From a virus, in the IMG/VR virus record IMGVR_UViG_3300044511_000090, positions 1 through 64,000 of that record: DNA of 64,000 nt. One strand, given 5' to 3'. Of this stretch, positions 5,227 to 10,563 are shown piece after piece; position 1 is the stretch's first letter, and each line of letters begins with the position of its first letter. The translations under genes and the position numbers were made by a program. The notes beneath the pieces are model-generated. The model saw only the letters and a program-made list of their open reading frames with translations. It ran no database searches and was not told where the DNA came from.

Positions 5227-5714
5227 CAAAGGTGAACAAACCCCGACAGCCGATTCACCGATCAGGGTTCGATATTCAAGATAGCAAGACACAAGAACAT
5301 TGGCAATACGAAAACAAGACACATTGATGCCGGTATGGGTTGGGTTCGCGCACCGACCCCGTTGAAAAGGCCGGTCGTCGTGTGCCGTATAAGGGCGGGA
5401 CGCTTCCGTTGGAGATGATTGATTTTCGTGGTACTCCTAATTCCCCCGTCACCACGTCTGAAGGCTTTCGCGGACCAAGGCCGTGTTTCGGATACCTTAC
5501 CTTGCATCAGATTTACGCCAGTGGATGAAACCATGCCGCTGGCAAAAGACGCACTTCCTAACTGCGGCGTCTGAGTCGCATTCCCTTGTGTACCCGCAGG
5601 TCGGCAAAGGGGGCCGGTCTCTCAACATGGAGTTTTTGAAAGTTTTTCTGTTGCTGTGTCAGGCAAGATATGCTAGGCTAACCTAGTTCTCTGCTGCTGC
5701 TACAGCGAGACACC
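5227..5714. other. Non-coding region, candidate structured RNA
   Basis: About 490 bases bounded by two strong hairpins (5196-5226 and 5715-5744). The short open frames on either strand lack ribosome-binding sites and protein-like composition. The stretch is GC-rich with many local inverted repeats, for example CTAGG and CCTAG around 5680. It ends in a minus-strand terminator. It could be a minus-strand non-coding RNA or a long regulatory leader. No known RNA family is recognised. Confidence 0.35.
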
Positions 5715-5744
5715 GGCCATCAGTAGTTTGTGCTGCTGATGGCC
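5715..5744. other. Strong hairpin downstream of the sigma gene
   Basis: GGCCATCAGTAG and CTGCTGATGGCC pair over 11 of 12 positions around a TTTGTG loop. A weak T-rich tract (ACTTTCTTT) follows on the plus strand only. It could be a plus-strand terminator, or an mRNA 3'-end structure for the minus-strand sigma gene. Confidence 0.5.
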
Positions 5745-5792
5745 ACTTTCTTTGGCGTCGTTTCATACTCTACCACATCGCCAATCGGCGTG

Positions 5793-6536
5793 TCAACTGG
5801 CAATCGTTCCGGTTTCTGGAAACAGCCTGGAATCCCACATGCGCTTGTTCTTTTCCACTGTATTCCAGAGGAAATTGACAATTTGCTTGGCCTCTCCAGC
5901 CCTCTCAATCGCTTTGGCCTCGACTTGCCGAACCCGCTCTTTGCTAACTCCCCAATCGTCAGCTATCTGCTGAAGGGTCTCGCCTTTCTCGAATCGTCGC
6001 ACGAGGACTTCGACATGCTTCGGCTTGAGCAAGAGAGACAGGATGCACTTGGTCTCAGGCATCATGGTCTCGCGTGGTTCTTCGTACTCTGGCCGATCCA
6101 AAACGTCGAACTGCAAATTCTCTCGACAGTCTTTTGTTTCTGAAAACTTATCCGACAACGAGATAACGCCATACTTTCTTGAGAACGAATTGAACACTTG
6201 GCCAATTCTTGATGTCAAAACAAGTGCCGCTCTTTGGACCCGATGCCTGATCCTGAACGTGGCATGTGTTGACCTTTTGGTGTTGTAAGATGGGTCAAAC
6301 GACAGGCACGACTCGCAAAGGCCAATGACGGCGGCTTGCGCCAAGTCTTCTGCAAATTGGCCTACTAATTTGTAAGGCTTGATGTTGTTTGTTACCATCG
6401 CCAAGAAGCGAGCATACCTGTTAGCGATTTTGAACGCTAGGCCGAGATTCTCGACCACCCATTCCCGTTCTTCTGGCGTGAGTTGCCTTGACTTCGGCTG
6501 TTCGGCAGAGATTATGCCCTGAGTCGATTGCTGCAT
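5793..6536 (-). CDS. Sigma-70 family RNA polymerase sigma factor
   Basis: 247 residues. Region 2 is seen in AFKIANRYARFLAMV and in EDLAQAAVIGLCESCLSFDP followed by HATFRIRHRVQRAAL. Region 4 is a helix-turn-helix, LQQIADDWGVSKERVRQVEA. It should bind host core RNA polymerase and redirect it to phage promoters. There is no region 1.1. ATG 6536 was chosen because ACGGAGC lies seven bases upstream; the longer frame adds 20 residues without family support. A second, more diverged sigma-like protein lies at 14782-15534. Which promoters it reads is not shown by the sequence. The CCCTATAAAT promoters at 59.4 and 63.8 kb are candidates. Confidence 0.85.
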   Translation of the reverse strand: MQQSTQGIISAEQPKSRQLTPEEREWVVENLGLAFKIANRYARFLAMVTNNIKPYKLVGQFAEDLAQAAVIGLCESCLSFDPSYNTKRSTHATFRIRHRVQRAALVLTSRIGQVFNSFSRKYGVISLSDKFSETKDCRENLQFDVLDRPEYEEPRETMMPETKCILSLLLKPKHVEVLVRRFEKGETLQQIADDWGVSKERVRQVEAKAIERAGEAKQIVNFLWNTVEKNKRMWDSRLFPETGTIAS

Positions 6537-7017: not shown

Positions 7018-7077
7018 TTAATCGAACAAGAACAGCTTCACGTTGGCGGTCGAGCCAGAGTAGTTGCCGATGGCGAT
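7018..7077 (-). pseudogene. Orphaned 3' end of the 7735-8196 gene
   Basis: Nineteen codons plus TAA encode IAIGNYSGSTANVKLFLFD, exactly the last 19 residues of the intact gene at 7735-8196. The piece has no start of its own and lies on the far side of the endonuclease gene. Fifteen of the 19 codons differ from the intact copy and every difference is silent. This is the original gene end, cut off when the endonuclease inserted. Confidence 0.85.
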
Positions 7078-7727
7078 GACAGAGACTTTTCGACTGACCA
7101 CCCTCTTTTTATTCTCTTTGAAATCGTCAGCCTAGATATTCCGGTAATTTCAGCCCATTCCGATAAGCACATCGTTCTGCCAAAGCACGATATAATCCTA
7201 TTGGACCTCTTATTCCTTTGCTGCTCAATTTGAGTAGCCCATCTTACATTTCCAGGCTTGTAGTCTCCGTCATTATCAGGGAACCTGTCAAGCGAATGGG
7301 AGGGAGACGGCCTGTATCCAACATCCAGCAAGAAATTGCTGAAAGAGTTTGCCCACCTTTCGCAAACTCTTATGCCCCTGCCACCATAGTCTTTGAAGTC
7401 ATGCGACGTTTTTCTTGTGCATCTCTTTTTGATTGCGGCCCACGCCGCGTATTCTGGAGATTGCTTTCTTGTCTTAGATTTACTGCATCCGTGGACAAAT
7501 CTTCGACTCTTGGTGGAATCTCTAGTAGCACATCCGCAGCTTGAATTCCCTGCTAAAAGAGTTGAAGAACTTACAATATCGACATTACCACAATCGCACC
7601 GGCACTTCCAAGAGCACAATGTTTTAGACCCGAACTTTCTTTTGCCTTCGTATGAAATAACAACCCGTCTGCCAATTCGATCACCTGTAAGGTTTTTGAA
7701 CTTTTTACTTTTTGGGAAATCAAACAT
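7038..7727 (-). CDS. Homing endonuclease of the phage YGGRGI / NVRWAT family
   Basis: 229 residues. The motifs follow a well-known phage endonuclease family, often annotated HNH or VSR-like: CSWKCRCDCGN, SPEYAAWAAIKKRC, DYGGRGIRVCERW, HSLDRFPDNDGDY, PGNVRWATQIEQQRNKR and a terminal helix-turn-helix (LSEWAEITGISRLTISKRI). It should cut a target in homologous phages lacking the insertion. ATG 7727 was chosen for the upstream GAGG. The gene is more AT-rich than its neighbours. It sits between an intact gene with a recoded 3' end (7735-7794) and the orphaned original end (7018-7077); its last codons overlap the latter in another frame. Confidence 0.85.
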   Translation of the reverse strand: MFDFPKSKKFKNLTGDRIGRRVVISYEGKRKFGSKTLCSWKCRCDCGNVDIVSSSTLLAGNSSCGCATRDSTKSRRFVHGCSKSKTRKQSPEYAAWAAIKKRCTRKTSHDFKDYGGRGIRVCERWANSFSNFLLDVGYRPSPSHSLDRFPDNDGDYKPGNVRWATQIEQQRNKRSNRIISCFGRTMCLSEWAEITGISRLTISKRIKRGWSVEKSLSSPSATTLARPPT

Positions 7728-7734
7728 GGTAGCC

Positions 7735-8196
7735 TCAATCAAAGAGGAACAATTTGACATTCGCAGTAGAACCAGAATAATTTCCAATAGCGATACTGTC
7801 TATCTCCTCCATTGAAGGTTCTGACGATCCAGTTATCAACGCTGTGCTTGCCACAGGACGAATCGAGCCGTAGCCAGAGAGCTTGAACGGCGCATACTTC
7901 CTGACCTTGACCGTCTCGCTTCCGGTCTGGCCGATGAGTTGGAGATAGACCGTCTGATCGGCCCAAAACCACAAGTAGTCGAAGTCTGTCGGGAAGTTGG
8001 AGTCTTCATCCCATGCCGTGCGAACAGTGGCCGTTGGAATCTGGCCGATGTACGTGTATATGAGCCCGGTGACAGTAGGCGACTCAGAAAATGCGTAAAA
8101 CTCGCTGGCCAAAGTGTCGGATTCGCCGTGGTTGGCGGCGAATGTCGTGCCGTTGACCTCGATTGAGAATCGGTCGATGATGTTCAGGTTTGCCAT
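7735..8196 (-). CDS. Beta-rich probable virion protein with replaced 3' end
   Basis: 153 residues, mostly alternating hydrophobic and polar beta segments (DRFSIEVNGTTF, DYLWFWADQTVYLQLIGQTG) like small phage head or tail decoration proteins. No precise family. GAGG precedes ATG 8196. Its final 19 codons (7735-7794) duplicate the protein end found at 7018-7077 but use different synonymous codons, so the protein stays unchanged despite the endonuclease insertion next to it. Confidence 0.7.
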   Translation of the reverse strand: MANLNIIDRFSIEVNGTTFAANHGESDTLASEFYAFSESPTVTGLIYTYIGQIPTATVRTAWDEDSNFPTDFDYLWFWADQTVYLQLIGQTGSETVKVRKYAPFKLSGYGSIRPVASTALITGSSEPSMEEIDSIAIGNYSGSTANVKLFLFD

Positions 8197-8793: not shown

Positions 8794-8988
8794 TCATGTT
8801 TCTTCTCGGATGTACTTGGCGACCTGTTCCAGTTGGTCAGGCGTCAAATACTCTCCAACAAACAAAGCGAACTTCCCTTTTGACACAAGACCGACCTCTT
8901 GGCCACGCAACGAGACTGTCCAGTACGTCCAGTCGTTAGGACGGCGGCACTTCTTGAACTCAAGCTGTTCTGTTGTTGTGCTGCTCAC
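8794..8988 (-). CDS. Small duplicated protein, copy B
   Basis: 64 residues, GTG start at 8988 with AGGAG about eight bases upstream, lying inside the EWKR codons of the previous gene. The core (LEFK.CRRP..W.YWTVSLRG, G.F..FVGEYLTPDQLEQV) matches the neighbour at 8960-9256. A tandem duplication is likely. Function unknown. Confidence 0.6.
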   Translation of the reverse strand: MSSTTTEQLEFKKCRRPNDWTYWTVSLRGQEVGLVSKGKFALFVGEYLTPDQLEQVAKYIREET

Positions 8989-9256
8989 GCTTCCACTCCT
9001 TGATAAACTCAACGACTTGTTCCAAATGCTCCTGTGTCAGCCATTGTCCGGCATAGGCCACGAACAAGCCCTGTGACGCCGTGCCGACAGGTTCGCCGCG
9101 AAGCAATACCGTCCAGGACATCAAACCGTCATGACGGCGATTCGGCTTGAATTCGAGAGACGGGGCTTTTATTGGTTCTGGCATACGAGACTCCCTCTGG
9201 CCGTTACTATACACACCCAAGTCGGCAAGCACGGCATTCACCAGCGCCGGATTCAT
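8960..9256 (-). CDS. Small duplicated protein, copy A
   Basis: 98 residues from ATG 9256 (GGGG five bases upstream, 11 bases after the orphaned methyltransferase stop), or 74 residues from ATG 9184 (GGGAG upstream). The shared core is LEFKPNRRHDGLMSWTVLLRG and GQWLTQEHLEQVVEFI. The spacing to 9268 shows that it once followed the methyltransferase directly. Function unknown. Confidence 0.6.
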   Translation of the reverse strand: MNPALVNAVLADLGVYSNGQRESRMPEPIKAPSLEFKPNRRHDGLMSWTVLLRGEPVGTASQGLFVAYAGQWLTQEHLEQVVEFIKEWKREQHNNRTA

Positions 9257-9267
9257 CCACGCCCCTG

Positions 9268-9372
9268 TTACGAAAACATCTCAGCTTGAGCCGGTTCAAC
9301 ATCCTCAAACAAGCTGCCCTTGCCGTTCGCTTCTTCGATTCGGCGGCAGGCAATGTCGAAATATTTCAGCTC
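9268..9372 (-). pseudogene. Orphaned 3' end of the methyltransferase gene
   Basis: Thirty-four codons and a TAA encode ELKYFDIACRRIEEANGKGS followed by LFED and AEMFS. This is the usual C-terminus of small phage DNA methyltransferases (YFDIACRRIEEA). It aligns with the intact gene's end, EKYFAAAVKRIEEAWGKYSLF, at 9862-10563. It has no start and is separated from its gene by the HNH gene at 9406-9921. Confidence 0.75.
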
Positions 9373-9393
9373 ACTGCATGTCCTATGAATTGT

Positions 9394-9399
9394 TATAAT
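9394..9399 (+). promoter_or_regulatory. Extended -10 element before the HNH gene
   Basis: TGTTATAAT is a consensus extended -10. The ATG at 9406 would lie at about the transcription start, so the mRNA may be almost leaderless. No good -35 is visible. Confidence 0.45.
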
Positions 9400-9405
9400 A
9401 CAGGA

Positions 9406-9921
9406 ATGAGAACAAAACCAACCATCATTGTCTGTAAGAACTGCGGGAAAACGGCATCCATACATTCCTATCGACTTCGGAATGGAACAGGAAAGTATTG
9501 CAGTTCGACTTGCTATTTTGCCAACCGGTGGAAACATGACGGGAATTGCCGCCAATGCCAAAAAAAATCCAAGACACGATTCTGTAATTCTGTTTGTCGA
9601 AAAGCATATTGGAATCGTGAGAGTTATCGACAGCATAAAACTAAGCGTAATTGGGAACGTAAACTGGCATTGATTAACGAGCTTGGCGGAAAATGCTGCA
9701 AATGCGGAATAAACGATCCCCGCGTATTGGACATCGACCATATTGACAGCACACAAAAAAAACGGCCTAAAAAACGCCAATGGACTTGGCATCGTCGTTT
9801 TGCTGATTGGGCAGCTAACAAAGGAAACCTCAGACTGTTGTGTGCAAATTGTCATCGTGTATTAACCTGGAAACAACGTCGATTCGGCCTTGTCAATGGC
9901 AAGTCTGTCCTCATCGAATAG
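9406..9921 (+). CDS. HNH homing endonuclease inserted in methyltransferase 3' end
   Basis: 171 residues, the only plus-strand gene in this minus-strand block. The N-terminal zinc knuckles are CKNCGKTASIHSY, YCSSTCYFANRW and FCNSVCRKAYW. The HNH core is LGGKCCKCGINDPRVLDIDH followed by IDSTQKKRP and NLRLLCANCHRVLTWK. It is AT-rich compared with the surrounding GC-rich genes, which suggests recent arrival. The last 60 bases overlap, tail to tail, the end of the methyltransferase gene, whose original 3' end is stranded at 9268-9372 on the other side. ATG 9406 was chosen because TATAAT lies just upstream and the zinc motif begins here. Confidence 0.85.
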   Translation: MRTKPTIIVCKNCGKTASIHSYRLRNGTGKYCSSTCYFANRWKHDGNCRQCQKKSKTRFCNSVCRKAYWNRESYRQHKTKRNWERKLALINELGGKCCKCGINDPRVLDIDHIDSTQKKRPKKRQWTWHRRFADWAANKGNLRLLCANCHRVLTWKQRRFGLVNGKSVLIE

Positions 9922-10563
9922 CGAATATTTTCCCCACGCCTCTTCAATTCTTTTCACAGCAGCAGCAAAGTATTTCTCGCATATTTCGATGCCGATGAAG
10001 CGACGACCGGTACGGACGCAGGCAACGCCGGTGGAACCGCTTCCGCAGTATGGATCGAGAATCGTGTCGGCATCCGGTATAAAGCCGAGACACCATTGCA
10101 TCAAGGCGACGGGCTTTTGGGTGGGGTGGACTCGCTCTATATCCTGTTCGCTGGCGCGAATCATTCCCATCCATCTGTGAGAAAACAATCGCGCTGGCTG
10201 GCGCAAGTTTGTCCATGCCATCTCACAATCGGCCATGTCATTACTTCTGCCTCCTTCCCTCTTGTCCCATATCAACCAAGAATCCATCGCGGGAAGGCGA
10301 TTGCTGTAATGATTCCCACCCCAGAGGATTAGAAACTTGAAATCCAGAAGCGGTCTTGGGTCAAACGGGTGGCAATCATCAATAATCCGCTCAAACTTAC
10401 CGCGAGCAGCTGAACAGTCTCCACCAGAAGGATTGTAACTAATCCCATACGGCGGGTCCGTCACTACCGCGTCCACGCTGCCAGCCGCCAGCGTCGGCAG
10501 CACTTCCAGGCAATCGCCGCGATACAGCACATGCTCGCCAATCTGGACACGCTCGAAGCTCAT
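9862..10563 (-). CDS. Site-specific DNA methyltransferase (DPPY type) with replaced 3' end
   Basis: 233 residues. The catalytic motif IV is VVTDPPYGISYN. The SAM-binding motif I is ILDPYCGSGSTGVACV, with the fold continuing GRRFIGIEICEKYF. The order IV then I is the beta class (N4-cytosine or N6-adenine). A target-recognition region with many W and H residues lies between. It probably protects phage DNA from restriction. ATG 10563 was chosen because AGGAGC is six bases upstream; the longer frame adds 43 unrelated residues. The C-terminal 30-40 residues come from sequence brought in with the HNH gene and differ from the orphaned end at 9268-9372. No cognate restriction enzyme is seen. Confidence 0.88.
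   Translation of the reverse strand: MSFERVQIGEHVLYRGDCLEVLPTLAAGSVDAVVTDPPYGISYNPSGGDCSAARGKFERIIDDCHPFDPRPLLDFKFLILWGGNHYSNRLPAMDSWLIWDKREGGRSNDMADCEMAWTNLRQPARLFSHRWMGMIRASEQDIERVHPTQKPVALMQWCLGFIPDADTILDPYCGSGSTGVACVRTGRRFIGIEICEKYFAAAVKRIEEAWGKYSLFDEDRLAIDKAESTLFPG

Follow-up and report, generated by a model that had tools for sequence, protein, structure and literature searches.

By the usual view, a selfish endonuclease depends on a site where it does no harm, such as an intron, an intein, or an intergenic gap. The closest described parallels to the phage element reported here are the mobile endonuclease ORFs (mORFs) of fungal mitochondria, which occur in atp6, atp9, cox2, and nad3 of Glomus sp. 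(PMC3630166), with a further atp6 mORF from Allomyces macrogynus cited in the same article. In these elements, the endonuclease ORF lies in the 3' part of a gene, a foreign C terminus is supplied in frame, and the native C terminus is left stranded and clusters with the host lineage (PMC3630166). A second parallel is offered by the free-standing homing endonucleases of the seg and mob groups of phage T4, which are described as spreading between phages by repair of a cut empty site with co-conversion of the flanks and as being encoded between the ends of neighboring genes or overlapping them (PMC2988022). The third is engineered; in HomeR, a synthetic CRISPR-based drive in flies, the nuclease is directed against the end of a gene's coding sequence, a re-coded 3' end keeps that gene working, and the targeting of the 3' end limits the amount of re-coding needed (PMC7968924).

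The locus described here, an HNH endonuclease gene at the 3' end of a phage DNA methyltransferase (MTase) gene, combines, as the mORFs do, an ORF for an endonuclease within the 3' part of a gene with a foreign C terminus in frame and a stranded native C terminus, which likewise clusters with the host lineage at two of the loci that we found (L173 and L172). The atp6 mORF encodes an endonuclease of the LAGLIDADG type, is read in the direction of its host gene, and resides in an organelle (PMC3630166), whereas the nuclease found here is an HNH protein whose gene is convergent with its host gene, overlaps it on the opposite strand, and resides in phages. Because it belongs to an HNH family in phages and not to a LAGLIDADG-type family in a mitochondrial genome, the phage element works like a mORF but is not one by descent. 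Spread by repair of a cut empty site with co-conversion, as described for the T4 enzymes, would probably apply here too; a carried 3' end and a stranded native end are not described for the T4 enzymes. In contrast to HomeR, it is natural and found in phages. The available excerpts of the nuclease literature on T4, ICP1, and Skunavirus (PMC2988022, PMC10448857, and PMC12724721) do not describe this layout, and among the phage articles that turned up in searches of the open-licence part of PMC, no title or opening of an abstract tells of a carried replacement 3' end.

A hybrid methyltransferase and its stranded tail

The window, i.e., the whole 64,000-nucleotide stretch of DNA that was analyzed, comes from a 74,144-base IMG/VR virus record, IMGVR_UViG_3300044511_000090; when its first 25 kb were compared with 50,697 phage records, no near relative came to light. 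On its minus strand it encodes a DNA MTase of the N6/N4 type (9862-10563; PF01555, E = 3.2e-20) that probably consists of a native body and a replacement 3' end. The replacement tail (9862-9984, minus strand), recognized by its G+C composition and by the tail profile described below, ends in EKYFAAAVKRIEEAWGKYSLFDEDRLAIDKAESTLFPG and a stop codon and is of the AAAVKRIEEAWGKYSLF type; its upstream limit is uncertain and lies at about 9975-9995. The attached tail has a G+C content of 43.7% (over 9862-9987) versus 55.4% in the MTase body. Convergent with the MTase is the gene for a 171-aa HNH endonuclease (9406-9921, plus strand), identified through the PHROG HNH families. The original prediction held that the two genes overlap tail to tail, and the junction sequences bear this out; 60 nt (9862-9921) are used on both strands, the last 19 codons of the MTase together with its stop lying across from the 3' end of the HNH gene on the other strand and the stop codon TAA of the MTase being a TTA codon of the HNH gene. 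At the other end of the nuclease gene, a gap of 39 nt on the plus strand (9367-9405, counted from the MRTKP start of the HNH), which holds TGTTATAAT, separates the HNH start from the KYF codons of a stranded MTase tail on the minus strand (9268-9372). This tail has 33 residues from its L codon, reads LKYFDIACRRIEEANGKGSLFEDVEPAQAEMFS followed by a stop, and has no MTase body ahead of it on the minus strand. The next gene of the operon (8960-9256, minus strand) has its ATG 12 nt past the stop of the stranded tail.

The C terminus of this MTase family usually takes the form of GIE, then xxxKYFDIACxRIxxA, and then a short variable end. A profile was derived from the C-terminal tails of 84 MTase relatives, the window being excluded, and every reading frame of the window and of 169 loci was scored with it; the frame with the window's stranded tail scored 38.3 bits (E = 1.9e-9), and only one other non-MTase frame was comparable (in L072; E = 5e-10), the next best having an E value of 1.2. 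Scored alone, the stranded tail gave 43.3 bits and the attached tail 35.0 bits. Both fit the family profile. The similarity of the two tails taken by itself was rejected as proof, its score of 57 in a blind paired-C-terminus scan of the 74,144-base record being matched by that of the reversed-sequence control (58). Because this score is not above chance, the tail pair is established by the family profile and the other loci. A wider scan of the same kind, over 1.09 Mb, was unspecific and not usable as proof; its match in L203 consists of two tandem MTases with no nuclease and was discarded.

The HNH protein matches the PHROG HNH endonuclease families (best E = 6.8e-14), and a Pfam HNH match appears only below the Pfam cut-off. 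Its motif is intact, with D111/H112, N148, and H150 invariant in all four members of the family described below, and its N-terminal part is Cys rich; a sequence search of the PDB returned only a zinc-finger match (E = 0.033). The fold model is moderate (pLDDT of 73), and its structural matches, led by HNH/Endo VII nucleases, are weak (all E > 0.2). Among phage records, the window HNH found 2 at 28% and the HNH of L072 found 109 at <60%, while plasmids yielded no match to the HNH, and relatives were present in 2 of 369, 0 of 385, and 0 of 392 bacterial genomes. Two distant bacterial HNH relatives (L258:1471-1854 and L259:1399-1863) are both convergent directly behind rpoD, and no stranded rpoD tail was found behind rpoD at either locus.

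Four phages with the same layout and the origin of the tails

The second locus with this arrangement, L072, was found by means of the tail profile; it has an MTase with its tail, a convergent HNH gene overlapping the MTase, and a stranded KYFDIAC tail, and its HNH protein is 57% identical to that of the window. A scan of IMG/VR with these two HNH proteins retrieved three contigs, i.e., the L072 contig, L172, and L173, and a rescan with all four HNH proteins returned the same three and no further one. All four contigs with this HNH family possess a hybrid MTase, a convergent and intact HNH gene, and a stranded tail that begins at the KYFDIAC codons; in the window and at the other loci alike, the endonuclease ORF sits within the 3' part of a gene for a protein. 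The MTase/HNH overlap measures 60 nt in the window, 57 nt in L072, -2 nt in L172, and 45 nt in L173, and the stranded KYF codons are separated from the HNH start by 39 nt in the window and by 30 nt in each of the other three. Upstream of the HNH start, all four loci have a short -10-like box (TGTTATAAT, TGATATACT, CGATATACT, and TGATAAACT). The first of these, which resembles an extended -10 element, ends 6 nt ahead of the window's HNH ATG; a two-hexamer promoter scan of the window found no full promoter for the gene.

The same site, nuclease family, and layout hence recur in four phages that are otherwise nearly unrelated; in the parts compared, each pair has only 0 to 5 proteins in common besides the MTases, and these are at most about 52% identical. 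The three further loci also lend support to the prediction that the HNH gene was inserted at the EKYF codons and came with a replacement C terminus. Phage genomes are mosaic, and tandem MTases with shared tails and no nuclease do occur (L203, L043, and L073), both of which would fit an ordinary exchange of the MTase 3' end with the adjoining HNH gene by illegitimate recombination, in which the nuclease is not the driving agent. Nevertheless, the site is the same at the codon level in all four cases, the spacing is near constant, and the HNH is intact each time, and a random exchange would not preserve identical start codons of the stranded tail. Mosaicism of this kind is accordingly an improbable explanation of the layout.

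L072 and L017 are the two ends of a single record (IMGVR_UViG_3300037524_000256), with different MTase bodies and identical tail DNA. The identity extends from the GRKFIGIE codons to the contig end and measures exactly 127 bp. Because this figure is a common word length of assemblers, we read the two loci only as two bodies joining one tail; the bodies may be alternative alleles or the result of a graph join. Only one HNH copy is present in G006.

The relatives that lack the element point to which tail is native. Among the 80 loci collected with the L173 MTase (L173 itself among them), the L173 body is nearest to those of the element-free L175 (77%) and L176 (74%). The tails of the element-free L175, L176, and L202 are KYFDIACERIENAQRQQRMFP, KYFDIACERIDQAQRQQRMFA, and KYFDIACERIEQAQKQVRLFE, respectively, and it is these three (L202, L176, and L175) that best match the stranded tail of L173, KYFDIACQRIEQAQKQVRMFE; its replacement tail best matches the attached tails of L072/L017. 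The body nearest to that of L172 (L269; 57%) is likewise element free and has a tail, RYFDIACERIAAAVGQGKLFAPEPVKQEQGALL, identical to the stranded tail of L172 at 28 of 33 positions. The site is thus polymorphic for the element, with L175, L176, L202, and L269 having no HNH gene. In scans for stranded tails, L173's own contig and L192 emerged from the 80 loci and L172's own contig from 79. In both L173 and L172, the tail found on the closest element-free MTases is the stranded one, which indicates that it is native there and that the attached tail came in. The ancestral tail, for which the original prediction proposed a search among MTase homologues, was found on the element-free relatives of these two.

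The prediction would have failed if the 9268-9372 fragment belonged to a different MTase gene brought in separately. Such an origin is unlikely for the fragments of L173 and L172, since their nearest element-free homologues carry the stranded tail; for the window, the point is argued by analogy only, as its best relatives have a body identity of just 54 to 55% and none is both close and empty. For L072, as for the window, no relative is close enough to tell the native tail. A related proposal is that the fragment is all that decay has left of a second MTase gene, either foreign or derived by tandem duplication, next to which an HNH gene lies; the tandem members of this MTase family provide a precedent. 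Against this, the remnant starts at the same codons at all four loci, the gap of 30 to 39 nt contains no further MTase remnant, and the empty relatives of L173 and L172 have the stranded type of tail on their MTase, which together make decay a very improbable account.

Probable mobility of the nuclease among methyltransferases

The MTase bodies of the four carriers are 47 to 53% identical and their HNH proteins 53 to 74% identical; between L173 and L072, the HNH proteins are 74% identical versus 53% for the MTase bodies. In a 33-row tree, a hand-chosen subset of nearest relatives and others, grouping of the four MTase bodies as one clade was rejected (p-AU = 1.6e-12, at a cost of 110 log-likelihood units), while L072 and L173 alone as a pair were not rejected (p = 0.118). 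Five changes are required on a 145-row MTase tree to account for the five labelled carriers, among them L017, for which no HNH gene is seen. The carriers are scattered over the MTase tree.

This scatter bears on a further reading of the gene pair. Restriction-modification systems commonly have a nuclease gene adjoining and convergent with an N6/N4 MTase gene, and the HNH and MTase could be taken for such a pair. However, IMG/VR has at least 591 stretches with relatives of the MTase, yet the HNH family is found in only three contigs besides the window. The nuclease is not co-inherited with a cognate MTase in the manner of a type II system but occurs only with four scattered MTase bodies; it tracks the 3' end of the MTase and not the body, whose variable part would set the specificity. 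Moreover, the stranded tail would be left unexplained, and we regard a restriction-modification pair as an exceedingly improbable interpretation.

The replacement tails of L072 and L173 are identical at 51 of their first 57 nt, whereas 4,690 element-free pairs with 50 to 65% identical bodies, a null comparison that left out L173 (the L072-L173 value being computed separately), have a mean of 38.5 of 57 nt, with 26 pairs reaching at least 50. The window's replacement tail matches those of L072 and L172 at only 33 and 35 of 57 nt, values reached by 91% and 81% of the null pairs, respectively. As it is no closer to them than background, it has either undergone extensive divergence or been acquired anew. 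YF is followed by D in 81 of 140 element-free tails, in all four stranded tails, and in none of the four element-borne tails (the latter being the independent ones among six element rows that contained duplicates), which is weakly suggestive of a substitution that renders the site immune.

We consider it highly probable that the replacement tail and the HNH gene up to its start codon, about 600 bp in all, together form a free-standing homing element that supplies its host gene with a new 3' end. In such an element, the HNH nuclease is predicted to recognize the conserved MTase 3' codons GIExxxKYFDIACxRI, the last strongly conserved motif of the enzyme, and to cut or nick the element-free allele. 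Repair would then copy the element in via homology to the MTase gene, using the GRxFIGIE codons upstream and the KYFDIAC tail downstream, a use that would fit the retention of the latter by every carrier. The element would bring its own version of the last 35 to 45 MTase codons, and the native tail would be pushed downstream. The MTase would stay whole because the element carries its own last codons, and the hybrid enzyme is thus predicted to work; with the nuclease striking at the final conserved motif, only a few codons would need carrying. As the replacement tail differs from the native DNA, it may also spare the element's own copy.

Other insertions at gene 3' ends and the antisense bridge frame

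In L192 (IMGVR_UViG_3300046093_000079), whose MTase is related to that of L173, a co-directional nuclease gene lies in the MTase 3' end, with a replacement tail attached and the native tail, HKRIEQAYAQGQLFEPVQAKQEQMSLEVAL, stranded behind the nuclease gene. Its insertion point is 6 to 7 codons downstream of the HNH-family site. The nuclease gene matches Endonuclease VII and endonuclease families and could not be convincingly aligned with the HNH of the window, a comparison of the two sequences giving E = 0.075 at best. L192 is thus like the HNH element in having replacement and stranded tails in the same MTase family but differs in its unrelated, co-directional nuclease. Within L192:679-1303, a 42-codon ORF with its ATG at 1175 overlaps the end of the nuclease gene and carries the stranded tail to the old stop.

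The window itself has another such arrangement at 7018-8196 (minus strand), where an HNH gene (7038-7727; PHROG HNH, E = 3e-57) lies between the gene at 7735-8196 and a stranded copy of the last 19 residues of that gene. The two copies are identical at the protein level (19/19) and differ at 16 of 57 nt, with all differences synonymous (17 of 60 nt with the stop). In this respect, the tail of 7735-8196 resembles a naturally re-coded rescue tail. Three types of nuclease, i.e., the HNH family of the four loci, the HNH of 7038-7727, and the Endonuclease-VII-like protein of L192, hence appear to be associated with replacement of a 3' end, and the latter two strengthen the earlier view that this is a repeated process rather than chance.

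Other loci bear a partial likeness to these. A LAGLIDADG-type endonuclease gene (PF14528, above the cut-off) at L254:10706-11752, which corresponds to about 70705-71751 of the record and lies outside the window, is convergent with and overlaps the 3' end of L254:11705-12196; no stranded tail was recognized there. Tandem MTases that differ in their bodies but have identical or almost identical final residues, with no nuclease between them, are found at L069:3923-4675 and 5566-6381 and at L203:2902-4399, and their shared tails may have arisen by gene conversion. L069 had been considered as an insertion and was rejected, the two MTases with identical last residues being a tandem pair.

All four copies of the HNH gene have, codon aligned on the antisense strand, a frame that is open from the MTase stop into the stranded tail, with which it is in frame, and that ends at the native stop of that tail. 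In the window, this bridge ORF has 195 aa (9268-9855, minus strand). Its ATG stands at +7 nt relative to the MTase stop in the window, at +4 nt in L072 and L173, and at -3 nt in L172, where the two overlap as ATGA; at its far end, the native stop of the stranded tail overlaps the next ATG or stands 12 nt ahead of it in the four loci. HNH codons that would close the frame number exactly one in three of the four genes, this being the MTase stop itself, and none in L172, as against eight for the HNH of 7038-7727 and seven for the L192 nuclease. With the codon usage of the respective genome taken into account, the frame is expected to be open with a probability of 0.055, 0.33, 0.14, and 0.035 (product, 8.5e-5), and open 145-codon windows in other genes number 40/506, 97/327, 5/126, and 4/232 (product, 1.6e-5); because the HNH genes are homologous, the four frames are not fully independent. 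A null based on third-position G+C only (0.0006 to 0.028) was replaced by real codon usage, as it overstates the rarity of an open frame.

The openness of these frames suggests that they may be translated. Ribosomes finishing the hybrid MTase would restart beside its stop, at an ATG located at -3 to +7 nt, and would read the HNH antisense and the stranded tail as far as the ancestral stop. This reading would keep the ribosomes coupled to the next gene, and the operon would be spared polarity. We offer as a tentative and still somewhat doubtful generalization that home-and-rescue elements arose in phages on three or more occasions, involving different types of nuclease, and that the antisense strand of the convergent HNH gene is kept open as a translational bridge.

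The homing element proposed here would settle in conserved coding sequence because it comes with a spare part, and owing to this spare part it could live in many different MTases. It would thus be a natural counterpart of the engineered home-and-rescue drives, and it would account for chimeric gene termini and for the small orphan tails seen in phage genomes. If the antisense bridge is real, it would allow an operon to accommodate an opposing gene without loss of expression.
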